Shown here: piece by piece, positions 685 through 13,123 of the stretch | How positions within the stretch are numbered: the stretch's first letter is position 1 | How the letters are laid out: each line of letters starts with the position of its first letter | Assembly (NCBI GenBank): GCA_900320595.1 | Contig: ONSW01000016.1 | Span: forward strand, 1 to 45,108 | Reading direction: 5' to 3' | Length of the DNA stretch: 45,108 bases | Source of the DNA: an uncultured Eubacteriales bacterium | Lineage (GTDB): Bacteria > Bacillota > Clostridia > Oscillospirales > Oscillospiraceae | The notes under the pieces: generated by a model | What the model saw: only the letters and a program-made list of their open reading frames with translations | What the model was told of the DNA's origin: nothing | Database searches by the model: none | Made by a program: the position numbers and the translations under genes

Positions 685-713
685 CTTTCATTGAAAACCA
701 AACGAAAAAATGA

Positions 714-741
714 CACCTGCCGCCCGTTCGGGCGGCAGGTG
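714..741. terminator. Bidirectional intrinsic terminator
   Basis: Perfect 13-bp stem (CACCTGCCGCCCG with its complement, TT loop). The plus side is followed by CTTTTCTAT and the minus side by TCATTTTTTCG. It ends the efp/CD1247 transcript from the left and the NHLM/LysM-peptide operon from the right. Confidence 0.9.
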
Positions 742-780
742 CTTTTCTATGGGATTTGCGAAAAGGAGTACGAACGCGAA

Positions 781-1056
781 TTAACGCCAGATGCGCGGAT
801 AGATCGTCAGCTTGGTGTCAGCGTAGATCAGGTCGACGTTCTTGACGGTGGTCGGATTCCAGTCCTTGATGTTCTGGACCGTGACGCCGAAACGCGCGGC
901 AATGCCGGAGAGGACGTCGCCGGGAGCGACGGTATAAACGATGTAGCTGCCGTAGTTGACGAAGCTGCCGTGGGAGTACTGCTGCCAGCTGCCGGCGCCG
1001 CCGGAGACGGATTCTACTTCTGCATCGGTGATCGGGGTTTTCAGTTCTTCTGCCAT
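781..1056 (-). CDS. Double-glycine leader peptide fused to a LysM domain (NHLM-type cargo)
   Basis: 91 residues. A short leader MAEELKTPITDAEVESVSGG (residues 1-20) ends in a double-glycine motif. The rest (about 21-91) is one LysM domain: YTVAPGDVLSGIAARFGV, then IKDWN and a closing LTIYPRIW. LysM binds N-acetylglucosamine polymers such as peptidoglycan. There is no Sec signal, so export would depend on the C39-peptidase ABC transporter at 6393-8573 cutting after GG. The start is fixed by AGGAGGATAG just upstream; the longer upstream frame overlaps the neighbouring gene and lacks a ribosome site. Last gene of the minus-strand locus, ending at the bidirectional terminator. Leader plus LysM is unusual for a bacteriocin-type precursor, and no Cys/Ser/Thr-rich core is seen. 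Confidence 0.8.
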   Translation of the reverse strand: MAEELKTPITDAEVESVSGGAGSWQQYSHGSFVNYGSYIVYTVAPGDVLSGIAARFGVTVQNIKDWNPTTVKNVDLIYADTKLTIYPRIWR

Positions 1057-1083
1057 GGTTCTATCCTCCTGAAAAATATGTTC

Positions 1084-1109
1084 CACAAAAGCCCGCAGGC
1101 TTTCTTGTG
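1084..1109 (-). other. Imperfect stem-loop between the Nif11-like and LysM-peptide genes
   Basis: CACAAAAGCC and GGCTTTCTTGTG can pair with small bulges. On the minus strand the stem is followed by a short T-rich stretch and the AGGAGG of the LysM gene. It could be a partial terminator or an RNA-processing site that sets cargo stoichiometry; this is inference. Confidence 0.35.
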
Positions 1110-1145
1110 TACGGGTTTGGTTCCGCGTGTTTTTCGTCCGGCGGT

Positions 1146-1445
1146 TCAGACGTTTTCGTCCTCCGCGCCCATCAGGCGGCGCAGGAGCGTAACGAACCAG
1201 GAATAGCGGTTGATCTCCTGCTCGGCCATGAGCGCGGGGTCGAGCCCGCCGGCGACATGGTCGAGCTCGTCGTCGGAGAGCGCCTCCTTTTCGGGCGGCG
1301 GCGCAAGATGATAGCCGCGCTCGGCAGCAAGCCTTTCGGCCGTTTCCCACGCGGTCTTCGGATCGGGGCAGGCGCGCAGTGCGTCGAGCAGCGCGGCGTC
1401 ATGCCGCACAAGCTCTTCAAATTCTTCCCGGCTGATCGTCGTCAT
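1146..1445 (-). CDS. Nif11-like leader peptide precursor with GG motif
   Basis: 99 residues. The N-terminal 40-50 residues (EEFEELVRHDAALLDALRAC...) follow the Nif11-like leader pattern, and LSDDELDHVAGG (about 56-67) is a typical double-glycine end. The 32-residue remainder (LDPALMAEQEINRYSW...) has no cysteine and no recognised modification core. Probable cargo of the NHLM transporter in the same locus. Start supported by GGGAGGAG seven or so bases upstream. It lies 31 bases after the sigma-factor gene, in the same transcription direction. Activity of the released peptide is unknown. Confidence 0.75.
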   Translation of the reverse strand: MTTISREEFEELVRHDAALLDALRACPDPKTAWETAERLAAERGYHLAPPPEKEALSDDELDHVAGGLDPALMAEQEINRYSWFVTLLRRLMGAEDENV

Positions 1446-1476
1446 GGTCTCCTCCCGTCCTTTTTGCGTATGTATC

Positions 1477-1956
1477 TCAGCCTCCCAGCATGCCGCGCAG
1501 CTTTTTCAGCAGCGCCTGGTGTCTGCGCTTGAGCACGCTGTAAGGGAGGTCCATTTTATTGGCAATCTCCTGAAGAGAGTTGTTTGCATAGTAATGCAGC
1601 ACCAGGATGTCCCGGTCCTGCTCGTCCAGCTGCCGCAGCGCGACGGCCAGGCGCTCGAGCGAATCGTTGCTGAGGATCTCCTCCTCCACGCTGTCGTCAA
1701 GGGGGATATCCTCGGCCAAAGGCGCGTGTACACGGTGCGTGCGATAATAATCGACGACCGTGTTTCGCGTTATGGTATAGATATAAGAAGACATACCCGT
1801 CCCGCGCTGGGCGTTCATGTTCTCCATGGCTTTGCGAAAAACTTCGCTGCACAGATCTTCTGCGTCCTCCGGACTGCTCACGCGGTTGCGGATATAGTCG
1901 TGAACCTTATGCCGGTATTCGCGGTAGATCGCTTCAAACTGTTCCGCGTCCGTCAT
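1477..1956 (-). CDS. ECF-family RNA polymerase sigma factor
   Basis: 159 residues, the normal length for an ECF sigma factor. Region 2 (FEAIYREYRHKVHDYIRNRV...AEDLCSEVF, about 6-45, with the typical DAEDL segment) contacts core polymerase and the -10 element; region 4 (about 105-155: LDEQDRDILVLHYY, then a helix-turn-helix SLQEIANKMDLPYSVLKRR) binds the -35. Its start overlaps the stop of the 65-residue gene by 4 bases (ATGA), implying translational coupling. No classic transmembrane anti-sigma gene is adjacent; the 65-residue and 300-residue proteins just upstream are the candidates to control it. It presumably directs part of this secretion locus; see the direct repeats at 3989-4172. Confidence 0.9.
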   Translation of the reverse strand: MTDAEQFEAIYREYRHKVHDYIRNRVSSPEDAEDLCSEVFRKAMENMNAQRGTGMSSYIYTITRNTVVDYYRTHRVHAPLAEDIPLDDSVEEEILSNDSLERLAVALRQLDEQDRDILVLHYYANNSLQEIANKMDLPYSVLKRRHQALLKKLRGMLGG

Positions 1957-2150
1957 ATTTTCGGCTCCCGATCCTCTTCTTCCGCCAGCCCTCTCGTGCC
2001 GCCCGCCGCCATGGCCAGGCTGTCATCGCTGAGGGCAAAAAACTGGTTTTGCGCGTACCGATCCAACACTTCGTCGATCACGCCCTGCAGAGCTGTGTTC
2101 TTTTCGAAGCGCTGATAATCAAACAAGGTTTTCAAGGCTGCTTCCAGCAT
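1953..2150 (-). CDS. Small 65-residue protein with a GG motif, coupled to the sigma factor
   Basis: Family not recognised. Helical N-terminus (LEAALKTLFDYQRFEKNTALQGVIDEVLDRYA) followed by LSDDSLAMAAGG at residues 40-51, which lines up with the double-glycine leader ends of the four other small proteins in the locus. Only 14 residues, rich in charge, follow the GG. It overlaps the 300-residue gene upstream by 19 bases and the sigma gene downstream by 4 bases, so the three are almost certainly translated together. It could be an exported short peptide, or a partner of the sigma factor that borrows the leader motif. Confidence 0.7.
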   Translation of the reverse strand: MLEAALKTLFDYQRFEKNTALQGVIDEVLDRYAQNQFFALSDDSLAMAAGGTRGLAEEEDREPKI

Positions 2151-3034
2151 TCGATCTCCTCCTCCAGCCGGATCGCCACGTCATAGGGCGACAGCTCGCC
2201 CTGCTCCGCCAGGAGCTCTTCAAAGCGGCACAGCATCCTGTGGACCTTCTGCGCCAGAAGATCCAGACGCTCGTGTCTGTTCTCCTCCCCGGCGACATAG
2301 TTCTCAAGTCTCCCGCCGACATAGCCCGTCTCGTCCGCGCCGAGGAACAGCTCCTCCATCGCGCGGTCAAAGCGGCCGAAGGCCGCCCACAGGCCGACGG
2401 CGTCGGCCACCAGCTCATCCCAGACGGCGTCCTTCAGCTCCGGGTAAAGCCTGCGGCAGATAAAGTGCGTACATTCGTGCGCTTTGCGGATGGCGTGCGA
2501 ATGCACAAGCCATTCCTCCTCGGAAAAGCCGGCCCGCTCGGCGCTGACAGCGCTGTACGGTCCGACGCTGAGCACGATCAGCGCGTCCTTGTAATTCGCC
2601 CTGTCGGCGGTAAAGCGCGCAAATTCCCCGCTCCAGCTATCGTTTGTGCCGCCCGCCGCCAGAAAAGCCGCCTCGTGCTCGCGGATCTTCGTCCAGTTGA
2701 CGACGCCGTCGAGGATCGCAGCGCCCTGGGTCTGCGGGATCGGCGCACAGGTGCAGCGGTGGGCCATGATCTGCAGAAACAGCTCAAAGTCCGCCCGCTC
2801 GCCGAGCGTGATCACCGGCACCGTGCCGGCCGGGGTCTCCTCCCGGGCGATCTCGTCGCGCTCGTGGCCGCGGAAATGCTTAAGGCTGCGGCATGACGGC
2901 TGCTGCCCCGACCGGACGACTGCGGCGTATTCCGCCGCGCCTTCCTCTCCCGGGGTCAGATAGAGCTGCGGATAGATCTCCGCAAGCGCCGCCATCACGG
3001 CCCTTCCCTGTAAAGCTTTCTCTCCCGCTTCCAT
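2132..3034 (-). CDS. Unknown 300-residue protein with an HExxH motif
   Basis: Family not recognised. Residues about 185-215 contain KAHECTHFICRRL followed by WDELVADAVGL: an HExxH zinc site with a downstream Glu (in ELVADA) well placed as third ligand, as in gluzincin-type metallopeptidases. No signal peptide or membrane segment, so it is cytoplasmic. It also has a Cys pair (RCTCAP, about 95). Start chosen at AAGGAGAGCTT-ATG. It sits between the CW_7 cargo gene and the 65-residue/sigma pair and overlaps the former by 19 bases at its 3' end. It could be a peptidase acting on leaders or on a sigma partner, or an inactive relative; the motif is seen, the activity is inferred. Confidence 0.7.
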   Translation of the reverse strand: MEAGEKALQGRAVMAALAEIYPQLYLTPGEEGAAEYAAVVRSGQQPSCRSLKHFRGHERDEIAREETPAGTVPVITLGERADFELFLQIMAHRCTCAPIPQTQGAAILDGVVNWTKIREHEAAFLAAGGTNDSWSGEFARFTADRANYKDALIVLSVGPYSAVSAERAGFSEEEWLVHSHAIRKAHECTHFICRRLYPELKDAVWDELVADAVGLWAAFGRFDRAMEELFLGADETGYVGGRLENYVAGEENRHERLDLLAQKVHRMLCRFEELLAEQGELSPYDVAIRLEEEIECWKQP

Positions 3035-3064
3035 AAGCTCTCCTTGCTGCGCCGGTATGGAGTT

Positions 3065-3090
3065 CCCCTCCGCCCGTTGGGGCGGAGGGG
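3065..3090 (-). other. Strong stem-loop after the CW_7-peptide gene
   Basis: CCCCTCCGCCC pairs with GGGCGGAGGGG (11 bp, 4-base loop) between the CW_7 cargo gene and the HExxH gene. No T-run follows on either strand, so it is more likely a message-stabilising or processing element that lets the cargo message outlast the downstream genes than a full terminator. Confidence 0.55.
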
Positions 3091-3131
3091 ATGTTTGCTG
3101 TCAGGCTCTTTGCCTGTTAGGGAAAGAAGGA

Positions 3132-3458
3132 TTACAGCAGCAGGTTGTTGACCAGGTTCTGGATGGTCTCGGGCGGGTAGCCGGCCTTGCGGAGTCTGGC
3201 GACACGGTCAGCACCGTTGCCGTACTTGCCGTTGATGACGTCGCGGGCGACATCGCCGTACTTCATGTAGTCGTTGACCAGACCCTGAACGACCTCGTAG
3301 TCATAGCCGGCGCGGGTCAGACGAGCCACGCGATCCTGGCCGTTGCCGTAGTCGCCGCGGATGCAGGCGAGGGCAGCTCTCATGTTTCTGGTAACGCCGC
3401 CGGAGACTTCCTCCAGGGCCTCGTCGGCCAGAACTTCAACTTTCTTTTCTTCGCTCAT
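3132..3458 (-). CDS. Double-glycine leader peptide fused to two CW_7 (Cpl-7) wall-binding repeats
   Basis: 108 residues. Leader with LADEALEEVSGG (about 10-21), then two tandem repeats: about 33-65 (IRGDYGNGQDRVARLTRAGY, then VVQGLVNDY) and about 72-107 (VINGKYGNGADRVARLRKAGY, here split for length, then TIQNLVNNLL). The GxYGNGxDRxxRLxxAGY...VQxxVN pattern is that of the CW_7 motif found at the C-terminus of the Cpl-7 phage lysozyme and other wall hydrolases, which binds the peptidoglycan muropeptide. There is no catalytic domain. Start follows AAAAAAGGAGATACGAAC. Probably exported by the NHLM transporter of this locus with cleavage after GG. Confidence 0.82.
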   Translation of the reverse strand: MSEEKKVEVLADEALEEVSGGVTRNMRAALACIRGDYGNGQDRVARLTRAGYDYEVVQGLVNDYMKYGDVARDVINGKYGNGADRVARLRKAGYPPETIQNLVNNLLL

Positions 3459-3548
3459 GTTCGTATCTCCTTTTTTAATATTTCTCCTCCCGGCAGCACC
3501 GATCCGGCACGGCGGGAAGGGTTTTACAATGATGGTGGGTCGCCGGAC

Positions 3549-3953
3549 TTACAGCTTTTCCGGCGTCCGGGCATTGTGCAGATCTTTGCGCTCCAGGGTT
3601 CTTTTTTCATCCGCGCGGCGCGCCTTTTCGGTGCTGTCGGCGATCATCAGACCGCGCACCAGCGAGCCGATCCAGGCGTTGAGGTCGAACGCACGCCCCG
3701 TGTTGACGCTCCGGCCGCCGGAGACGGCCTCGATCTCGTCATCGTCGACGGGCTGCATCTGCGCCGCCGTCTCAAAAGCGCTTGCGGACAGGTTATAGCC
3801 GATCTGCTCGGCGGCCAGGGCCGCCAGCTCGGACAGGCGGAGAGCGCCGTTCTGCTTGGCCAGGTCCTCGACCTTTTCGCGGTAACGCTCGCGGAGGTCC
3901 TGATCCTCGCTCAGCGCGGTTTCGAGCTTTTTGATCTCTTCGTAAGCTTTCAT
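3549..3953 (-). CDS. Nif11-like precursor protein with VSGG cleavage motif
   Basis: 134 residues from ATG at 3953, chosen for the AGGAAGGGA site upstream; an upstream in-frame ATG at 4115 would run through the direct repeats and is not preferred. The first 80 residues form a long charged helical leader (EEIKKLETALSEDQDLRERY..., SELAALAAEQIGYNLS) of Nif11 type, ending VDDDEIEAVSGG. The 54-residue remainder starts RSVNTGRAFDLNAWIGSLVRGLM, with an amphipathic stretch, then a charged tail. No cysteine is present in the core, so lanthipeptide-type rings are not expected. It is the first gene after the repeat region, downstream of the two ABC genes. Confidence 0.72.
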   Translation of the reverse strand: MKAYEEIKKLETALSEDQDLRERYREKVEDLAKQNGALRLSELAALAAEQIGYNLSASAFETAAQMQPVDDDEIEAVSGGRSVNTGRAFDLNAWIGSLVRGLMIADSTEKARRADEKRTLERKDLHNARTPEKL

Positions 3954-3988
3954 GTCTGTCCCTTCCTGCGGCAGCGGCCGCTTGCTTA

Positions 3989-4172
3989 TCGCTTTCTGTC
4001 TCTTTATACGAACGACTTTTCGTTCGGGACGCTTTCGGTCGAAAATTTTTTTCTTTTTTTCGTCCGGGCTGCGCCGTTCGTCTTTTTTTCGGCAGATCGC
4101 GGCGGGCGATTGCATGTCGCTTTCTGTCTCTTTATACGAACGACTTTCCGCTCGGGACGCTTTTTTCGAAAA
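3989..4172 (-). repeat. Two ~57-bp direct repeats (3989-4045 and 4117-4172), candidate tandem promoters
   Basis: The copies start 128 bases apart; their first 31 bases are identical and the rest differs at a few positions. Read on the minus strand both contain AAGCGTCC, about 17 bases later CGTATAAA, and then GAGACAGAAAGCGA. CGTA is a common -10 core for ECF sigma factors, so these may be tandem promoters for the cargo genes used by the sigma factor of the locus. They fill the 222-base gap between the second ABC gene and the 134-residue precursor. Repeat is seen; promoter role is inferred. Confidence 0.6.
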
Positions 4173-4175
4173 ATT

Positions 4176-6380
4176 TTATTCTTTTTCTTCCGGCTTGGTG
4201 TCCGTGTCCAGCCTCTGCCGCTCGACCAGCTCGGCGAAAAAGCCCTTCTTCGCGATCAGCTCGTCATAGGTGCCGTCCTCGATGATCCGTCCCTTGTCGA
4301 GCACCAGGATGCGGTCGCAGTTGCGGATCGTGGAGAGGCGGTGCGCGATGACGATACGGGTGCACTTGAGGCTGTCGAGCGCGTCGGACACCTGCTTTTG
4401 CGTCTTGTTGTCAAGCGCCGAGGTCGCCTCGTCGAACATCAGCACCTTCGGCTTCGGCGCGACGGCGCGCGCGATCATGAGACGCTGCTTCTGTCCGCCG
4501 GAAATGCCGCCCTGGCCCTCGGAAATGATGGTCTGCATGCCCATCGGCATGGAGCGGATGCTCTCGGCGATGCCGGCCATTTCCGCGGCCTCCCATGCCT
4601 CGTCGAGCGTGAGCTGCGGCGCGGAGATGACGATATTGGAATAGATGTCGCCCTGGAAGAGGCTGCCGTCCTGGGTCACCGCGCCGATCCGGCGGCGCAG
4701 CGAGCGCAGATCGAGCTTGGACATATCCTTGCCGTCGTAATAGATCGCGCCCTTTTCCGGCGTTTCAAAGCCGAGCAGCAGACGCATCAGCGTCGATTTG
4801 CCGCAGCCCGTCGTGCCGACGATGGCGATGTATTCGCCGGCCTTGATCTTCAGGCTCATCCCGTCGACGACATAGGGCATGTTGTCCGTATAGCGGAAGT
4901 AGACGTTCGACAGCTCGATGTTGCCCTTGAGGGAGGTGACCATCGTCTTGTTCTCGGTGGTCTCCGGCTCGGTCTTCAGGATGGGCTCGGCCATCTCAAG
5001 GATCGGGCGGATACGCGCCACAGAGAGCGCCACGCCCGTCAGCGAGGCAAAGGCGCCGGCCACCAGGCCGTAGGCGGCGTTGAAGGCGATATACTCCGAG
5101 GGGCTGACCCTGGTCTGTACCGCGATATAGTACATCAGGATCGTGCCCGCCAGCGAGATCGCCATGGAGATCGCCGCGTTTGCCTTTAAAAGCAGCGGGG
5201 GATTGTAGCTGAGCTCTGCGAGCTCGGTATAGGCGCCGGCCCAGCGGGCAAAGGCGCGCTTTTCCGCACCGGCGAGCTTGATCTTCTGCACGCCGGAAAT
5301 CAGCGCGTAACTGATGCCGTTTTCCTTGGCGCCCTTTTCCATCATCTGACGGCTGATCTTCATCTGGCGGAAGGAGGAGAGCAGGCTGAAGGCCAGGCTC
5401 ACCGCGATGATCCCCAGCGCGGGCACCACCAGCGCCGGCGCGAAGTTGAAGATCTGGGGCACATACAGCAGCGACGAGAGCGACGTGAGACCCAGCGAGA
5501 AGACGCTGCCGAGAAGCAGGCTGCACAGCTGGTTGACCGCGTCGGCGCGGCTGGACAGTTCACCGGAGGCATACTTGCGGAAGAAGTTTGCCGGCAGGTT
5601 CATCAGGCGCATCATCATCGCGGCCTCCACGCTGAGGGAGGTCTTGATCTCGACGCGGTTCATCATCAGCTCGCGCACCGCGCCGATCAGCTGGGATGAG
5701 ACGATGGCGCAGACCATGAATACCGCCGTGCCGAGGAGCAGCCCTGTGCTGCCGCTGTCAAGCACAAAGCCCGTGAGCAGGCGGGTGATGCGCAAGATCG
5801 GGATGCCGAAGAGCGTGACGAGGAGCGTCAGCGCGATCAGCAGCACGAAGTCGCCCGTGCTCAGACAGTTTTTCATGTAAAGGATCAGATCCGGGATGCC
5901 CAGCTTTTTGAGCGGCAGCGGCCGGTAAAAGCAGATGGCGTCCGGGCGGAAGCGTTCCGCCGTCGCGGCGGTGACCCGGGTCTTCTCGCCGGTGACAGGG
6001 TCGCTGAACCAATAGCCCGCGAAGGGATTGGGCAGCAGCGCGACGGGCGTGCCGTCCTCCTTGAGGAAGCCGAGCATCGGCCCGAAGGCGTCCTTCTGCC
6101 AGCCCTTTTCCAGCTTGACGCTCCGGCGCATCAGCCCGTGCGGACGCAGACAGTATTCCAGCTGCTCGTCGATGTCGGTGATGCTGTCGGGGATCTCCTG
6201 GCTTTTATAATGGTAGTATTTCAGGATCTCATCGATCGCGGCCTTCGTCACGATCCTGTCGTCGAGCGCGCCGATGCCCTGTTTGCCGAGCACCGTTGCG
6301 GCCATGCGCAGAATGGAGTCTTCAAAGAGTTCCTGATCGCTTGCTTTGCGCTGTCTTATCTGTTCATCAAACCAACCCAT
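4176..6380 (-). CDS. NHLM-type bacteriocin/peptide ABC transporter, ATPase/permease without peptidase (ABC2 type)
   Basis: 734 residues. About 1-165 is a soluble N-terminal region typical of the second NHLM transporter, without the C39 Cys-His pair; 175-460 holds about six membrane segments; 495-734 is the ATPase with GTTGCGKST, ISGGQKQR, VLMFDEATSALD and the H-loop IAHRLST. It most likely forms a heterodimer with the ABC1 protein encoded 12 bases upstream. The family is named for nitrile-hydratase-leader and Nif11-leader microcins, which fits the Nif11-like precursors here. Confidence 0.9.
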   Translation of the reverse strand: MGWFDEQIRQRKASDQELFEDSILRMAATVLGKQGIGALDDRIVTKAAIDEILKYYHYKSQEIPDSITDIDEQLEYCLRPHGLMRRSVKLEKGWQKDAFGPMLGFLKEDGTPVALLPNPFAGYWFSDPVTGEKTRVTAATAERFRPDAICFYRPLPLKKLGIPDLILYMKNCLSTGDFVLLIALTLLVTLFGIPILRITRLLTGFVLDSGSTGLLLGTAVFMVCAIVSSQLIGAVRELMMNRVEIKTSLSVEAAMMMRLMNLPANFFRKYASGELSSRADAVNQLCSLLLGSVFSLGLTSLSSLLYVPQIFNFAPALVVPALGIIAVSLAFSLLSSFRQMKISRQMMEKGAKENGISYALISGVQKIKLAGAEKRAFARWAGAYTELAELSYNPPLLLKANAAISMAISLAGTILMYYIAVQTRVSPSEYIAFNAAYGLVAGAFASLTGVALSVARIRPILEMAEPILKTEPETTENKTMVTSLKGNIELSNVYFRYTDNMPYVVDGMSLKIKAGEYIAIVGTTGCGKSTLMRLLLGFETPEKGAIYYDGKDMSKLDLRSLRRRIGAVTQDGSLFQGDIYSNIVISAPQLTLDEAWEAAEMAGIAESIRSMPMGMQTIISEGQGGISGGQKQRLMIARAVAPKPKVLMFDEATSALDNKTQKQVSDALDSLKCTRIVIAHRLSTIRNCDRILVLDKGRIIEDGTYDELIAKKGFFAELVERQRLDTDTKPEEKE

Positions 6381-6392
6381 GACTCCACCCCC

Positions 6393-8573
6393 TTAATCGC
6401 TGGAAATGAGCTCTGTATAGAAGCCGCCTTTGGCATAGAGCTCTTCATGCGTGCCGCGCTCGACCACAACGCCCTTGTCGAGCACAATGATCTCGTCGCA
6501 GTCGCGGATGGTGGAAAGCCGGTGGGCGATCACGATGCAGGTGATGCCGCGATCCTTGACGGCCTTGACCAGTTCATACTCGGTCTTGGCGTCAAGGGCG
6601 CTCGTCGCCTCGTCCATGATGATGACCGAGGGATCCTGCGCGAGGACGCGTGCGATCTCGATGCGCTGACGCTGGCCGCCGGAAAGGTCTTTGCCGCCCT
6701 CGGTGAGACGGCTGTAAAAGCCGCCCTCGCGGGCCATGATATCGTCATAGATCTGGGCGTCGCGCGCGGCGAGGATCATTTCAAAGTCCTCGATCGACTC
6801 GTCCCACATCTTGATGTTGTTGGCGATGGTGTCCTCAAAAAGGACGATGTCCTGGTCCACGACGGCGACCGAGCCGGTGAACACGCTGCGGTCGATCTCG
6901 CTGATGGGCTTGCCGTCAAAGAGGATCTCGCCGCTCCAGGGCTGGTAGAGCCCGGAGATCAGCTTGCTCAGCGTGGACTTGCCGCAGCCGGAGGTGCCGA
7001 CGAAGGCGACGCGGCTGCCGGGCTTCATGCTCATGGAGAAGTTCTGGATCAGGGGCTTGCCCAGACGGGAGTAGCCGAAGCTGACGTCCTTGATGTCGAT
7101 CTGGCCGGTGAGCTTGGAATAGTCCGCGTCCTCGTCCAGCGGCAGCTCGGCAAAGGCCGAGTCGGTGGGGTACTCCATGACGTCCTCGACACGCTCCATC
7201 TCGGTGCGCATCTCCTGGATCATCTGACCCGCGGAGATCAGCGTCGTGGCGGGCGCCATGAACGAGGAGAGGAAGCCCTGGAAGAGCAAAACCTTACCGA
7301 GCGTGAACGAGCCCTGCATCGACAGCCAAACGCCCAGGATCAGCACCGCGGCGTCCGCGAGCGTGGTGAGCAGCGCGGGGATCAGACCGAGATACTGGTT
7401 GAGCTTGGCGTACTTGACGCTCTGCGCGTTGACGGAGGCCTGATAGCCGGACCACTTCTGGAAATAGCCGTTTTCCGCGCCGCTGGCCTTGATGGTCTCG
7501 ACCATCTGGATGCCGGAGACCGTGGCGGCGACGAGCTTGCCGCTGTCGCGCATCTGCACACGCGTGATGTTCACGCGCTTGGCAGAGATGATCTGGCTCA
7601 TCAGAAGGTTCAGGATGATGGTCACGATGCCGACCATCGTCAGCAGCACGCTGTAGCGGAGCATGACGATCAGATAGAAGAACATCATGATCGTGTTGAG
7701 CAGCAGCGGGGCAAAGGTGTTGACCAGCGTCGCGGCGATCGAGGCGTTGGTGCCCTGGCGCTGCAGGATATCGCCGGCCATGCGCTGGGTAAAGAACTCC
7801 AGCGGCATCCGCAGCACCTTCCACATAAAGGTACTGCTGCCGACGAGCGCCATCTTGCCGCTGATCTTCAGCTCATAGATGGCCTGGATCCAGGCGACGA
7901 TCACCTGGGCGACGGCCATGACCGACATCAGGCCGATGAAAGGCATCAGCAGCTCGCGGTTTTCGCCGGTGAGCAGCCGGTCCATGAAGAAGCGGGAAAA
8001 GATGGGATTGATGATGCCGAAGAGATAGCCGATGACGGACGAGAGCATCACAAAGGCCACCGCCGCGCCCGCGCCGACAAGGCGCTTGCGGGCAAAGGCG
8101 ATCGTGCTCTTGGGCTTGCCGCCCGGCTGGAAGTCCGGCCCCGGGGTGATCTGGAGGCAGATGCCGGTAAAGGACCGGTCGAACTCCTCCATCGAGACCT
8201 TGACCTCGCCCCGCGCGGGGTCGTTGAGGTAGGCCCAGTCGCCCTTGAAGCCGTCGAGCACCACAAAGTGGTTGAAGTTCCAGTGGATGATGCAGGGGTA
8301 GGACATGTCCTTTTTCAGCGCGCCGACCTCACAGCGGAAGCCCTGGGCGTCAAAGCCGTAGCTGCGCGCCGCAACAAGGACGTTTTTCGCGTTCGAGCCG
8401 TCGCGGGACACGCCGCAGTCGAGCCGGACCTGCTCGAGCGGGACCCACTTGCCGTAATAGGCCATGACCATGGCCAGCGAGGCGGCGCCGCATTCGAGCG
8501 TCTCCATCTGCATGACGACCGGTACTTTGGCTCTGCCTCTGCGTACCGGCTGCTTGACTGTCTTATTCTCCAT
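6393..8573 (-). CDS. NHLM-type ABC transporter with N-terminal C39 leader peptidase (ABC1 type)
   Basis: 726 residues. The N-terminal C39 peptidase (about 15-145) shows the catalytic Cys in METLECGAAS, His in WNFNHFVVLD and Asp in LNDPARG, so it should cut precursors after the double glycine. Membrane segments span about 165-450; the ATPase (490-726) has GTSGCGKST, LSGGQRQR, VIIMDEATSALD and IAHRLST. It couples leader removal to export of the small GG-proteins in the locus. It begins 12 bases after the HlyD-like gene and is followed 12 bases later by ABC2, a standard NHLM order. Confidence 0.93.
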   Translation of the reverse strand: MENKTVKQPVRRGRAKVPVVMQMETLECGAASLAMVMAYYGKWVPLEQVRLDCGVSRDGSNAKNVLVAARSYGFDAQGFRCEVGALKKDMSYPCIIHWNFNHFVVLDGFKGDWAYLNDPARGEVKVSMEEFDRSFTGICLQITPGPDFQPGGKPKSTIAFARKRLVGAGAAVAFVMLSSVIGYLFGIINPIFSRFFMDRLLTGENRELLMPFIGLMSVMAVAQVIVAWIQAIYELKISGKMALVGSSTFMWKVLRMPLEFFTQRMAGDILQRQGTNASIAATLVNTFAPLLLNTIMMFFYLIVMLRYSVLLTMVGIVTIILNLLMSQIISAKRVNITRVQMRDSGKLVAATVSGIQMVETIKASGAENGYFQKWSGYQASVNAQSVKYAKLNQYLGLIPALLTTLADAAVLILGVWLSMQGSFTLGKVLLFQGFLSSFMAPATTLISAGQMIQEMRTEMERVEDVMEYPTDSAFAELPLDEDADYSKLTGQIDIKDVSFGYSRLGKPLIQNFSMSMKPGSRVAFVGTSGCGKSTLSKLISGLYQPWSGEILFDGKPISEIDRSVFTGSVAVVDQDIVLFEDTIANNIKMWDESIEDFEMILAARDAQIYDDIMAREGGFYSRLTEGGKDLSGGQRQRIEIARVLAQDPSVIIMDEATSALDAKTEYELVKAVKDRGITCIVIAHRLSTIRDCDEIIVLDKGVVVERGTHEELYAKGGFYTELISSD

Positions 8574-8585
8574 CTGCGGCCGCCC

Positions 8586-9011
8586 TCAGTTGAACAGCAG
8601 GCGAAGCACCTGCGTCGTGCGGAATACGACGCGGGCCTCATACAGGCCGTCGGCCAGATCGGCGGAGCTGAGCGCAAAGACGTTGCCGTCCTCCATATAG
8701 CCGACGCTGGTGATCGGATATTCTCCCTCGCCGATGGTGAGCGTCATGCCCGTCTCGACGTTTTTGCCGACCTGCGCGTCGTCGAAGATCACGACCACTT
8801 CACCGTTGCGCACGTCCGCGACGCCGGGGGCGAAGCTGTCGATCCGTGCGACGGCGCCCCATACCAGCATGCCGGCCAGCAGCACGATCACCGCGATCAG
8901 CACGACCCACACGGAGGGGTTCGTCACGCGCATATAATCGTTCAGCTGCTCGGGAGACTGGATGCTCTCGACGCTTTCCTTGCGAAACAGGGAGGTCTGT
9001 TCGTTGTCCAT
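8586..9011 (-). CDS. HlyD-like adaptor of the NHLM secretion system
   Basis: 141 residues from ATG at 9011, preceded by GAGGAGAAAAGA. The N-terminus is cytoplasmic and charged, with a single membrane segment (WVVLIAVIVLLAGMLVWG, about 33-51) and a short extracytoplasmic beta-rich part (55-141) resembling the compact NHLM HlyD-type proteins rather than the long coiled-coil adaptors of Gram-negatives. It is the first gene of the minus-strand operon and lies next to the peptidase-transporter. Expected role: link between the transporter and the cell-wall side. Confidence 0.8.
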   Translation of the reverse strand: MDNEQTSLFRKESVESIQSPEQLNDYMRVTNPSVWVVLIAVIVLLAGMLVWGAVARIDSFAPGVADVRNGEVVVIFDDAQVGKNVETGMTLTIGEGEYPITSVGYMEDGNVFALSSADLADGLYEARVVFRTTQVLRLLFN

Positions 9012-9107: not shown

Positions 9108-9137
9108 AGTATAACGCAACCCACCGCCAAAAATCAA
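9108..9137 (-). promoter_or_regulatory. Predicted sigma-A promoter of the NHLM operon
   Basis: On the minus strand: TTGATT (9132-9137), an 18-base spacer and TATACT (9108-9113), about 97 bases before the HlyD-like start. It faces away from the promoter of the partner-switching genes. Confidence 0.6.
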
Positions 9138-9430: not shown

Positions 9431-9730
9431 ATGCTGAACATCAACAAGAAAACCGAAAACGGAGCTCTCACCGTCGCGCTGGAGGGCCGTCTGGACACCA
9501 CGTCCGCGCCGCAGCTGGAGGGCGAACTGAAGGGAGCGCTCGACGGCGTCACGTCGCTCGTTCTCGATCTCGAGGGGCTCGAGTACATCTCCTCGGCCGG
9601 CCTGCGCGTGCTGCTCTCCGCCCAGAAGCTTATGAACAAGCAGGGCGAGATGACCATCACCCACGTCAACGACGTCATCATGGAGATCTTCGACGTCACC
9701 GGATTTACCGACATTCTGACCATCAAATAA
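9431..9730 (+). CDS. STAS-domain anti-sigma factor antagonist
   Basis: 99 residues, a complete single STAS domain of the SpoIIAA/RsbV type. The signature LEYISSAGLRVLL (about 50-62) carries the phosphorylatable serine, by alignment Ser55. In this family the unphosphorylated antagonist binds a serine-kinase anti-sigma and releases a sigma factor; a PP2C phosphatase restores it. The gene is preceded by AAAAAGGGGAACGAACC and followed 12 bases later by exactly such a phosphatase/ATPase fusion, so the three partners are encoded together. Target sigma factor is not evident nearby, apart from the ECF factor across the divergent promoters. Confidence 0.9.
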   Translation: MLNINKKTENGALTVALEGRLDTTSAPQLEGELKGALDGVTSLVLDLEGLEYISSAGLRVLLSAQKLMNKQGEMTITHVNDVIMEIFDVTGFTDILTIK

Positions 9731-9742
9731 TCGGAGGTCCTT

Positions 9743-11890
9743 ATGCCCGAAAAATCTGTGCGTGAAATGACACGCCTGGAGCAGGCTCACTTCTCGCTGG
9801 CCGCAAAGGTCTTTCACGCGAGCCTGATGGGCTCGGTCGTCCTCGGCCTTGTCGCCATGCTGATCGGTCTGGGGCTGTATACTTATGCGCTCGTCGGCCA
9901 GTACATCGGCGAGGCCTTCGGTCTTGCGCGCAGCACCTCGCTGGTCGTAACCAAGGTCGTGAACACCGACGTCATGGTCGACGAGGTCATGGACCTCTAT
10001 CGCTCGCTCTCCGACGAGGAGCGCGCGCAGACCGGGACGGAGGCTTACCGCGCGCGCTTTGCCCATCTGACCGAAGGGGAGGATTACGCGACGCTCTGCT
10101 CCGTCTTTCGCGTGTTTCGCGATTCGAGCAACGTGGATGACGTGTATCTCGCCGTCTTTGACCGCGAGACCGGCGCGCTCGTCTATGTCTGCGACCCGGA
10201 TGAGCGCGACGGCTATGTCTGCATGCCCGGCGACTGGGAAGAGGTTGAGAAGCGCGAGCTCGAAAAGTTCCTGAACTGGGACGGAAACGGCAAGCTCTAT
10301 GACATCTCCCGGACCGAACACTACGGCTGGCTGTGCACGGCCGGCGTCCCGATCCATGATGCGGGCGGCGAGGTCCGCGGCTTTCTGCTGGCCGATCTGT
10401 CGCTGGCAAACCTCACGGACAGGATGCACGCCTTTGTGCTGCAGTATGTGCTGGCGCTGCTCGTCGTGATCTTTCTGATCGGCTATCTGATCACACGCCA
10501 TATGAAGCGCACGCTCGTCCGCCCGATCAATGAGATCGCAGACGCGGCGCAGCGCTATGCCGCCGACCGCCGCAGCGGCGAAGGCGGGACCGACCATTTC
10601 TCTCTTTTGAACATCCGCACCGGCGACGAGGTGGAAAATCTGAGCCTCGTGATGGCGGATATGGAGCGGGATCTCGCGGCGTATGAGGAGCACCTCACCG
10701 CCATCACGGCCGAAAAAGAGCGCATGAACGTTGAGCTCGCGCTTGCCAACCGCATCCAGTCCGACATGCTGCCGAACATTTTCCCGCCCTTCCCCGACCG
10801 GACGGAGCTGGACATCTACGCCAGCATGGACCCGGCCAAGGAGGTCGGCGGCGACTTTTACGACTTTTTCCTGATCGACGAGGATCATCTCGGCCTTGTC
10901 ATGGCCGACGTATCCGGCAAGGGCGTCCCCGCGGCGCTGTTCATGATGGCCTCGAAGATCCTGCTCAAAACCGGCGCCATGTCCGGCCGCAGCCCGCACG
11001 AGGTCCTCGAGACGGTCAACGCCCAGATCTGCAGCAACAACCGCGAGGAGATGTTCGTCACAGTGTGGCTGGGCGTGCTCGATTTGAAGACCGGCGTGCT
11101 GACGGCATCCAACGCCGGCCACGAATACCCCATCCTGATGCAGCCGGGCGGCGAGTATGAGATCGTCCGGGACAAGCACGGCTTTGTGATCGGCGGGATG
11201 GAGGGCGTCAGCTATCACGATTATGAGCTGCAGCTGCAGAGCGGCGCCAGGCTGTTTCTCTATACCGACGGTCTGCCTGAGGCGACCGACGAAAAGGGAG
11301 AGCTTTTCGGCATGGAGCGGACGCTCGACGTCCTCAACCGCTTCCGCGGCGACGCGCCGCAGGCGCTGCTTGCGCACGTGCACGAAGCGGCGGACGCCTT
11401 TGTCGGCAGCGCGCCGCAGTTTGACGATCTGACCATGCTTAGCCTGCACTACATCGGCACCCCTGTAAAGGAGGGATCCCATGTGAAAAAACTGGAACTG
11501 GAAGCCACCGTTGACAGCATCGAAAAAATCACCGACTTCATCAACGCCGAGCTTGAGGCCATGGACTGCCCCATGAAGGCGCAGATGCAGATCGACGTCG
11601 CTGTCGACGAGGTATTTGCCAACATTGCAAATTACGCCTATGAAGGTGCAAAAGGGGGCGCCGTCGTCTCCTTTGAGGCGCAGGACGACCCGCGCGGCGC
11701 CGTGATCACCTTTGTCGACCGCGGCGTGCCCTTCAACCCGCTTGAGAGCAAGGACCCCGACACCTCGCTGAGCGCCGAGGAGCGGCAGATCGGCGGGCTC
11801 GGCATCTTCCTGGTGAAAAAGACGATGGACGAGATGCGCTATGAGCGGCGCGGCGAAGAAAATGTCCTGCGCATCACGAAGCTGTTTTAA
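9743..11890 (+). CDS. Membrane SpoIIE-type PP2C phosphatase fused to an anti-sigma-type HATPase
   Basis: 715 residues. Membrane segments at about 30-55 and 230-250 enclose a 175-residue extracytoplasmic sensor, followed by a HAMP-like linker (250-310), a PP2C/SpoIIE phosphatase (345-565; Asp motifs in KEVGGDFYDFF, MADVSGKGVPAALF and FDDLTML) and a C-terminal GHKL ATPase of RsbW/SpoIIAB type (575-715; DVAVDEVFANIANYA N-box, DRGVPFNP, GGLGIFLVKK). One chain thus holds both the phosphatase that activates a STAS antagonist and an ATPase of the anti-sigma kinase class, under an external sensor. It lies between two STAS genes. Whether the ATPase phosphorylates STAS or only binds it is not visible. 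Confidence 0.9.
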   Translation: MPEKSVREMTRLEQAHFSLAAKVFHASLMGSVVLGLVAMLIGLGLYTYALVGQYIGEAFGLARSTSLVVTKVVNTDVMVDEVMDLYRSLSDEERAQTGTEAYRARFAHLTEGEDYATLCSVFRVFRDSSNVDDVYLAVFDRETGALVYVCDPDERDGYVCMPGDWEEVEKRELEKFLNWDGNGKLYDISRTEHYGWLCTAGVPIHDAGGEVRGFLLADLSLANLTDRMHAFVLQYVLALLVVIFLIGYLITRHMKRTLVRPINEIADAAQRYAADRRSGEGGTDHFSLLNIRTGDEVENLSLVMADMERDLAAYEEHLTAITAEKERMNVELALANRIQSDMLPNIFPPFPDRTELDIYASMDPAKEVGGDFYDFFLIDEDHLGLVMADVSGKGVPAALFMMASKILLKTGAMSGRSPHEVLETVNAQICSNNREEMFVTVWLGVLDLKTGVLTASNAGHEYPILMQPGGEYEIVRDKHGFVIGGMEGVSYHDYELQLQSGARLFLYTDGLPEATDEKGELFGMERTLDVLNRFRGDAPQALLAHVHEAADAFVGSAPQFDDLTMLSLHYIGTPVKEGSHVKKLELEATVDSIEKITDFINAELEAMDCPMKAQMQIDVAVDEVFANIANYAYEGAKGGAVVSFEAQDDPRGAVITFVDRGVPFNPLESKDPDTSLSAEERQIGGLGIFLVKKTMDEMRYERRGEENVLRITKLF

Positions 11891-11941
11891 GCCGCTCCCC
11901 TCTCCCCGCGTGGGAGACCCTGACAGAAGGAGTTTATGACA

Positions 11942-13123
11942 ATGGAAAACGTCAGCTGGAACAAGACGGACAATGCGCTGGTGCTGTCTCTGCGCGGCCA
12001 TATCGATTCGGCCAACGCCGCCGCGGTCGAGGCGGAGATCGCCCGCATCCGCGAAGAGAACCCGGCCGATTCGATCGTGATCGACTGCGCGGAGCTTGAA
12101 TATATCTCCAGCGCCGGTCTGCGCGTCCTCCTTCGGCTGAAGAAGGCCGCGGCGGACATGCACGTGGAAAACGTCTCCGCCGAGATCTATGAGATCTTCG
12201 AGATGACGGGCTTTACCGAGATGATGGAGATCCGCAAGGCCTATCGCACGCTCAATGTGGAGGGCTGCGAGGTCATCGGTCAGGGCGCGAACGGCAAGGT
12301 TTACCGCATCGACCCGGACACGATCGTCAAGGTCTATTACAACCCCGATTCCCTGCCGGAGATCCAGCGCGAGCGCGAGCTTGCGCGGGCGGCCTTCGTG
12401 CTCGGCATCCCGACGGCGATCCCCTATGATGTCGTGCGCATCGAAAGCGGCGGCTACGGCTCGGTGTTCGAGCTGCTGAACGCCAAAAGCCTTGCCCAGC
12501 TGATCGCCGGCGGCATGTCGGTGGACGAGGCGGCCGGGATCAGCGTCGAGCTGCTCCGGCAGATCCACGCGACCGTCGTCAAGCCCGGCACCATGCCGGA
12601 TATGAAAGAGGTCGCGCTGGGCTGGGCCGATTTTCTCAAGGACTATCTGCCGGCGGAGCAGCATCAGAAGCTGCACGAGCTCGTCTCTGCCGTACCGGCG
12701 GACGACCACATGCTCCACGGCGACTACCATTTGAAAAACGTCATGCTGCAAAACGGCGAGACGCTGCTCATCGACATGGACACGCTCTGCCACGGCCACC
12801 CGATCTTCGAGCTGGCCAGCATGTTCAACGCCTATTGCGGCTACAGCGAGCTGGACCATTCCATCAGCCGGTCGTTCCTCGGCATTTCGCATGAGCTCGC
12901 CGTCGAATTCTGGAAGAAATCGCTCAGTCTCTATCTCGGCACCGACGACGAGGCGGCCTGCCGCGCCGTCGAGGAAAAGGCCTGCGTCATCGGCTATACG
13001 CGCATCATGCGCCGCCGGATCCGCCGCGACGGCTTTTCCACCGAGGAGGGGCGCCGGGAGATCGAAAACTGCGCCGCCCACCTCGCGGAGCTGCTCGGGA
13101 AGGTCGACACGCTCCTGTTCTGA
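11942..13123 (+). CDS. STAS domain fused to an aminoglycoside-phosphotransferase-like kinase
   Basis: 393 residues from the ATG at 11942, preferred over the ATG six bases upstream because GGAG at 11929-11932 is then nine bases away. Residues 1-100 are a second STAS domain with LEYISSAGLRVLL (likely phosphosite Ser57). Residues about 105-393 are an APH/choline-kinase-fold domain with QGANGKVYRI (nucleotide loop), HGDYHLKNVML (catalytic HGDxHxxN motif) and LIDMDTLCHGHP (metal-binding Asp). The kinase substrate is unknown. Physical fusion to STAS suggests it phosphorylates STAS or is switched by it; resistance to aminoglycosides is unlikely. Separated by 51 bases from the phosphatase gene. Confidence 0.85.
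   Translation: MENVSWNKTDNALVLSLRGHIDSANAAAVEAEIARIREENPADSIVIDCAELEYISSAGLRVLLRLKKAAADMHVENVSAEIYEIFEMTGFTEMMEIRKAYRTLNVEGCEVIGQGANGKVYRIDPDTIVKVYYNPDSLPEIQRERELARAAFVLGIPTAIPYDVVRIESGGYGSVFELLNAKSLAQLIAGGMSVDEAAGISVELLRQIHATVVKPGTMPDMKEVALGWADFLKDYLPAEQHQKLHELVSAVPADDHMLHGDYHLKNVMLQNGETLLIDMDTLCHGHPIFELASMFNAYCGYSELDHSISRSFLGISHELAVEFWKKSLSLYLGTDDEAACRAVEEKACVIGYTRIMRRRIRRDGFSTEEGRREIENCAAHLAELLGKVDTLLF

Follow-up and report, generated by a model that had tools for sequence, protein, structure and literature searches.

The window analysed here, a 45,108-nucleotide stretch of DNA from an uncultured Eubacteriales bacterium, encodes a 108-residue protein made of a double-glycine (GG) leader and two CW_7 repeats. 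Judged by sequence, leader-tagged, non-catalytic wall binders of this type are a real, lineage-restricted class of apparent cargo; new is the cargo class, the kind of exporter being already known. The protein is probably exported by the NHLM transporter, cut by a C39 peptidase and, as a non-catalytic muropeptide binder, most likely coats the wall of the producer alongside LysM proteins.

Domain structure of the CW_7 protein

The ORF at 3132-3458 (minus strand; Table 1) starts with the 21-residue leader MSEEKKVEVLADEALEEVSGG, followed by a short spacer and two CW_7 repeats, in which the motif GxYGNGxDRxxRLxxAGY occurs twice. PF08230 (CW_7) matched the protein with 108.6 bits (cut-off 25, E 1.2e-31) in two stretches. 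No enzyme or catalytic domain exceeded the cut-off in Pfam and NCBIfam (weak sub-cut-off matches only), and no membrane-active stretch was found in the protein. The composition proposed in a preliminary description, a leader with two CW_7 repeats and no enzyme domain, is thus confirmed. No second CW_7 protein was found elsewhere in the source assembly (2.07 Mb, 93% complete).

In an AlphaFold2 model, the leader was of low confidence (pLDDT about 50) and the helical repeats were predicted with pLDDT 91-98. A continuous helix joins the two repeats, and repeat 2 reaches the end of the protein. The top two PDB structure matches were the Cpl-7 wall-binding domain 5I8L (E 1.7e-4, global superposition poor with an rmsd of 12.9) and its single repeat 4CVD (0.6 Å across 36 columns, 47% identity, E 0.03). 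The same two entries were the only PDB sequences matched by a CW_7-family profile at E <= 0.01 (2.9e-32 for 5I8L).

The muropeptide site of Cpl-7 consists of Arg271 and Gln286 and is backed by mutants, according to the available text of PMC5705596. The equivalent residues in the window protein are R43/Q58 in repeat 1 and R85/Q100 in repeat 2. Among the two-repeat leader proteins, the Arg was kept in 55/59 first and 59/59 second repeats, and the Gln in 58/59 and 59/59, respectively. Alignment A1 comprised 32 of these 59 proteins and none of the four with a degenerate repeat 1. These four (L046, L075, L084 and L111) miss the ligand Arg in repeat 1 and have SpoIIE genes overlapping or nearby.

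Leader pattern, spacing and selection

LahT is described as recognising leader residues Val-4, Leu-7 and Leu-12 in the accessible part of PMC6363468. Leaders were selected with a filter for L at -7, V/I/A at -4, at least three acidic residues and an ATG. Position -12 was hydrophobic in 59/59 two-repeat CW_7 leaders, 13/13 leaders of a second CW_7 set and 40/40 LysM leaders. Positions -4 and -7 were hydrophobic in the same sets, bar one LysM leader at -4, a result partly fixed by the filter because it selected on those two positions. At position -15, hydrophobic residues were found in 46/58 CW_7 leaders vs 7/40 LysM leaders. The predicted leaders of both protein types thus match the LahT recognition rule. 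The two-repeat analyses covered 59/61 ORFs; L056, which is complete, was removed by the filter, and L098 has lost its start to a contig end. The second set (n = 13) consisted of 12/14 one-repeat genes (L092 and L100 were dropped by the filter) and the first half of a split gene in L112.

A GG preceded the first CW_7 repeat in 80/90 ORFs from the window and related loci, at a distance of 6 residues in 77 and of 7 residues in three. The ten ORFs outside this count were cut by a contig end (three), long (four) or without GG (three); of the latter, one is the second half of a frame-split gene and two (L037, L040) are from other genera. The arrangement of leader and repeat is thus not due to chance.

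For 1315 CW_7 pairs, the median dN/dS was 0.46, and the 15 closest pairs had values of 0.025-0.283. The largest value was 1.27. Distant pairs were near saturation, and purifying selection is indicated for close pairs only. A derivation of the protein as a hydrolase fragment was considered and ruled out, both by the GG 6 or 7 residues ahead of the repeat and by the low dN/dS among close pairs.

Organization of the operon

From 9011 to 781 on the minus strand, the operon contains genes for the HlyD-like protein, ABC1, ABC2, the 3549-3953 protein, the CW_7 protein and DUF7005, followed by the 65-residue leader-like protein, the ECF sigma factor, the Nif11-like peptide and the LysM protein, with intergenic gaps of at most 222 bases. 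The catalytic Cys, His and Asp of C39 are present in the window ABC1, as in 83/83 aligned ABC1 sequences. The HlyD-like protein scored 24 bits against TIGR03794 (HlyD-like subunit; cut-off 156.2), with positions 3-42 of 421 matched. Shortened HlyD-like proteins recur near ABC1 in related loci.

Table 1. Features of the operon and its surroundings, in window coordinates.
Feature	Position	Strand	Basis or remark
Terminator-like hairpin 3' of LysM gene	713..742	-	15 found in region vs 8.2 in shuffles
GG-leader LysM protein, 91 aa, second wall-binding cargo	781..1056	-	PF01476, 48 bits vs 20.9
Nif11-like leader plus short peptide, 99 aa, no wall-binding fold	1146..1445	-	TIGR03798, 18.9 bits, below 32.3
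ECF-type sigma factor	1477..1956	-	TIGR02937, 96.3 bits
65-aa protein ending in leader-like LSDDSLAMAAGG plus 14 residues	1953..2150	-	Overlaps sigma-gene start by 4 nt
DUF7005 protein, HECTH motif	2132..3034	-	PF22541, 179 bits
GG-leader protein, two CW_7 repeats, 108 aa	3132..3458	-	PF08230, 108.6 bits; model matches 5I8L/4CVD
CW_7 repeat 2	3138..3254	-	Profile match, 60.5 bits
CW_7 repeat 1	3267..3371	-	Profile match, 53.7 bits
Leader, residues 1-21, V-4/L-7/L-12; predicted C39 cut after G21	3396..3458	-	Sequence; rule from PMC6363468
Ribosome-binding site AAGGAG, 8 nt 5' of ATG of CW_7 gene	3467..3472	-	Read from sequence
GG-leader cargo, 134 aa, no Pfam family; core ..FDLNAWIGSLVRGLM..	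3549..3953	-	Pfam scan
NHLM exporter ABC2 (permease/ATPase)	4176..6380	-	TIGR03797, 717.7 bits vs cut-off 709.4
NHLM exporter ABC1 with C39 peptidase	6393..8573	-	TIGR03796, 932.1 bits vs cut-off 853.3
Short HlyD-like protein, 141 aa, one hydrophobic stretch	8586..9011	-	TIGR03794, 24 bits, below cut-off
STAS / SpoIIE-HATPase / STAS-APH genes, divergent from exporter	9431..13123	+	Possible regulator

The hairpin downstream of the LysM gene is likely the end of the operon. A promoter-like site (9108-9137) lies ahead of the operon and is no evidence on its own, as three such sites were found vs 1.8 in shuffles. A further hairpin between the CW_7 and DUF7005 genes (3064-3091; 12 pairs, G+C-rich, listed on the plus strand only) may stabilise the upstream message. 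Many NHLM loci in the genus and the family have STAS and SpoIIE genes nearby, which suggests partner-switch control.

The DUF7005 protein may be a metallopeptidase, judging by its HExxH motif. HECTH is present in 8/10 DUF7005 homologues including that of the window; L234 has HELTH, and a fragment in L236 is without a match. The DUF7005 gene often adjoins the CW_7 gene. The 65-residue protein may be secreted as a signal that is linked to the sigma factor, and similar proteins are found in L042, L061 and L106.

No RiPP modification enzyme was recognised by Pfam or NCBIfam among the operon genes (781-9011), of which DUF7005 has no assigned function, or in a scan of ten flanking ORFs. With no maturase recognised, the assignment of the CW_7 protein as a RiPP precursor was rejected. 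The protein matched neither of the leader families TIGR03793 and TIGR03798, and its Nif11-like neighbour stayed below the cut-off.

Within the operon, membrane-spanning stretches were confined to ABC1, ABC2 and the HlyD-like protein. A typical immunity gene was thus not recognised, with three genes lacking an assigned function. This bears on the possibility that the exported CW_7 and LysM proteins are bacteriocin-like weapons that attach to competitors' walls and stop these cells from growing or dividing. The annotation of NHLM exporters refers to bacteriocin export, and CW_7 recognises a muropeptide common to many bacteria (available sections of PMC3466307), so that foreign walls are possible targets. 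Apart from the missing small membrane protein for immunity, the CW_7 protein has neither a catalytic domain nor a membrane-active stretch, and the low dN/dS of the closest pairs also speaks against a weapon, which we regard as improbable. Killing by wall binding alone is not known.

LysM proteins and other cargo

The LysM protein at the end of the operon bears out the claim of a second wall-binding cargo at the locus. Alignment A2 comprised 39/43 LysM cargo proteins picked by eye among 65 candidates, plus that of the window. All 40 scanned leader-LysM proteins matched PF01476, and at least three sequence types were distinguished by eye. Two unrelated wall-binding folds therefore stand behind equivalent leaders in the genus, as had been proposed, with LysM cargo in the same loci as CW_7. 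In L239 (16595) and L241 (12322), LysM cargo has two successive GG leader-like motifs per protein.

Cargo without a recognised wall-binding fold is represented in the window by the Nif11-like peptide, the 3549-3953 protein and the 65-residue protein. In related loci, such cargo consists of NPYSWFV-type peptides, proteins of the 3549-3953 type, beta-rich proteins of about 125 residues and an SH3-like protein (by eye). The beta-rich proteins have GG leaders and were seen in L073 (1952-2389), L081 (6267-6707), L119 (13599-14036) and L122 (13365-13817). Three of them were scanned without a significant Pfam match, a single-sequence model was of low confidence (pLDDT 49), and no PDB relative was found at E <= 0.1. 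The SH3-like cargo of L122 likewise had no significant Pfam match.

Distribution within the genus

Neighbours of PF08230 proteins were surveyed in genome samples of the genus, the family and the order; LysM was followed with alignment A2 in the order sample only. In the genus sample, CW_7 was found in 55/101 genomes and NHLM ABC1 in 63/101 (E <= 1e-180). Leader-CW_7 genes were present in 53 of the 101; G318 and G367, with CW_7 solely in long ORFs, were set aside. ABC1 was detected in 50/53 genomes with leader-CW_7 vs 13/48 of the remaining ones (Fisher p 6e-13, the genomes being related and not independent). The three without an ABC1 match were G307 (65% complete), G373 (leader-CW_7 gene on a 5-kb contig) and G390, where ABC1 adjoins the leader-CW_7 gene (L109) but is split over two frames. 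Neither of the outcomes at odds with the preliminary description, a lacking CW_7 profile match or a gene occurring mainly apart from NHLM transporters, was thus encountered.

On the level of contigs, 39/67 two-repeat genes were located 0.7-9.2 kb from ABC1 and 28/67 had no ABC1 match on the same contig (contig-cut genes and one frame-split gene are counted among the 67). All 14 one-repeat genes were on contigs without ABC1; their tails are DPYLG (11) or DPYK (3), or end one residue further. The expected NHLM neighbours of CW_7 proteins below 130 residues were therefore found for the majority of two-repeat genes and not for the other 28 or for any one-repeat gene, which makes the class NHLM-associated, not always NHLM-adjacent. 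MAG contigs are short, though some of the unlinked genes sit on contigs of 110-346 kb.

These many unlinked genes would fit a merely cytoplasmic or chance association, in which the leader-like N-terminus does not lead to export and the genes are simply co-located. Such an association is nevertheless very hard to reconcile with the leader pattern, the GG spacing of 6 residues in 77/80 ORFs and the co-occurrence with ABC1, and peptidoglycan, the known ligand, is outside the membrane; we consider it highly improbable.

One-repeat leader-CW_7 genes were observed in L035, L052, L059, L064, L068, L076, L078, L083, L086, L092, L100, L103, L108 and L113. Directly upstream of 11/14 lies an ORF from either of two families; by eye, the two families probably represent the opposite strands of a single phosphoribosyltransferase-like gene.

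An NHLM locus was examined in 12 of the 13 NHLM genomes lacking leader-CW_7: leader-LysM was present in five, including L238 with divergent leaders, and absent in seven. The locus of G385 and second NHLM copies of several genomes were left out of the NHLM set.

Distribution outside the genus

CW_7 was found in 11/300 genomes of the family sample. Seven of these had leader forms, five belonging to this genus and two (G084, G292) to one neighbouring genus. The leader form was absent in G041, G145, G258 and G282, of which G041 (172 aa) and G258 (123 aa) have shorter ORFs without GG; G145 is common to the family and order samples. In the order sample, CW_7 occurred in 18/394 genomes, and among the matches listed, apart from the window genome, the frames had at least 242 residues, except for a 28-residue fragment (G484).

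When GTDB species genomes were scanned for a single peptide pattern, with at most 80 loci retained, 79 loci were listed, a number limited by the pattern. Leader forms or fragments thereof accounted for 50 loci, and the other 29 had CW_7 modules in ORFs of at least 229 residues, lysin-like by eye, or one contig-cut fragment. The record titles of the 50 leader-form loci name Oscillospiraceae, Ruminococcaceae, Eubacteriales, uncultured Clostridia or Clostridiales, and for 11 of them goat, sheep or yak gut is given. CW_7 outside the group is thus mostly found in long ORFs, in line with the statement that it is normally attached to a hydrolase and stands alone here.

The long CW_7 ORFs in other genomes of the order would fit a role as shield or sponge, in which the small proteins would cover muropeptide sites and keep out CW_7-type lysins from phages or rivals, or would sequester free muropeptides. 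The ligand residues are the same as in lysin CW_7, and CW_7 and LysM are also paired in lysozymes (PMC3466307, sections available). Within the genus sample, CW_7 was restricted to long ORFs in just G318 and G367; pressure from the organisms' own prophage lysins is thus not evident, which lends this role no support. We rate it as unlikely, but it overlaps with wall coating as the main explanation and is compatible with it.

A leader-plus-LysM profile matched at least 51/384 genomes of the order sample at E <= 1e-10. At most 15 candidates per genome were scored in the first pass, and some matches were in frames of 51-131 aa. Among the matches listed, that of the window itself was the only one to start in the first half of the leader (position 4); the others began at position 11 or later.

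Elsewhere in the family, 31 NHLM loci from other genera (4-20 kb fetched per locus; three are below the family cut-off) showed neither leader-CW_7 nor leader-LysM genes. Several of these loci carry Cys-rich or Nif11-type leader peptides. In the neighbouring genus, CW_7 cargo occurs together with LysM cargo in G084 and G292, and G156, which is among the 31, has neither. L228 (1-2300), from another genus, has an array of six GG precursors next to an NHLM exporter; their leaders are long and their cores Gly/Cys-rich.

Exporter sub-clade

In a tree of 83 ABC1 sequences, obtained by a quick search and with long branches, wall-binding cargo was assigned to 42/57 rows of one set (SH-aLRT 96) and to 0/26 outside it; 35/83 rows came from loci that had been fetched for holding CW_7. 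The wall-cargo label required six changes on the tree. For this count, L118 (3.97-kb contig) was left out, and the label of L088 was set manually, since the contig ends within its CW_7 gene. The proposal that wall targeting is the purpose of the system stands in part: it is a main use of this exporter sub-clade and not of NHLM systems generally, since NHLM loci of other genera carry other leader peptides. Even the window operon has cargo for which no wall-binding fold is known.

Discussion

In the proposed mechanism, the C39 domain of ABC1 would recognise the 21-residue leader and cut after GG, and ABC1/ABC2 would export the 87-residue domain of two CW_7 repeats. This domain would bind peptidoglycan through both repeats and, together with co-exported LysM proteins, form a coat, structural or protective, on the producer's own wall. 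At the level of the genes, the analysis establishes domain, leader, ligand residues, linkage and lineage restriction, and from these we infer export, cleavage and muropeptide binding of the CW_7 protein. The producer's own wall as the target, and the reason for decorating it, are the least certain elements. Own-wall decoration is the leading reading because of the lack of a recognised immunity-like gene, the low dN/dS of close pairs, the absence of a killing segment and the precedent of MAM.

Fold and ligand residues of the repeats are shared with Cpl-7 (5I8L, 4CVD). Cpl-7 has a muramidase module and three repeats, whereas the class described here has one or two repeats, a GG leader and no enzyme. 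With NHLM/NHLP export (Haft et al. 2010, available text of PMC2887384), the window shares TIGR03796 and TIGR03797 matches over the cut-off and GG-leader substrates. That text describes modified natural-product precursors and contains no occurrence of LysM or cell wall; in contrast, the window cargo includes folded domains, no maturase was recognised and the HlyD-like protein is shortened. The logic of leader and exporter is also that of class II bacteriocins with C39 ABC transporters, from which the window differs by a wall-binding module as cargo and by an operon without a recognised immunity-like membrane protein.

A precedent is MAM of Faecalibacterium duncaniae (accessible text of PMC12184118), likewise a small protein with a GG leader, encoded next to a C39 ABC transporter in an anaerobic gut Firmicute. 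MAM is located in the envelope, and its export by the adjacent PCAT was argued in silico. Its fold is reportedly absent from the PDB, a hexamer has been modelled and a lattice was seen by microscopy; LysM has no occurrence in the available text.

A tentative extension, which we consider possible but doubtful, is that the NHLM sub-clade constitutes a dedicated leader-cleaving display route, the mixed, non-catalytic coat of which shields muropeptides from lysins or host sensing. Separately encoded CW_7, LysM and other modules would then in effect be a lysin's binding half, recast as secreted proteins of the cell surface.

No prior report of such a system was found among top-ranked results of the open-licence literature. 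With one NHLM sub-clade having folded wall-binding domains as apparent cargo, NHLM loci should not be labelled bacteriocin clusters by default. As ligand, leader and cognate peptidase are all predicted, standalone CW_7 and LysM proteins can be tested directly for their function. After MAM, this would be a second candidate for a C39 ABC transporter that supplies the envelope of a gut Firmicute. In a group of uncultured bacteria of the gut, several of which have goats, sheep or yaks as hosts, an exporter of the peptide-antibiotic type apparently sends out small wall-gripping proteins, which hints at an unreported surface coating.
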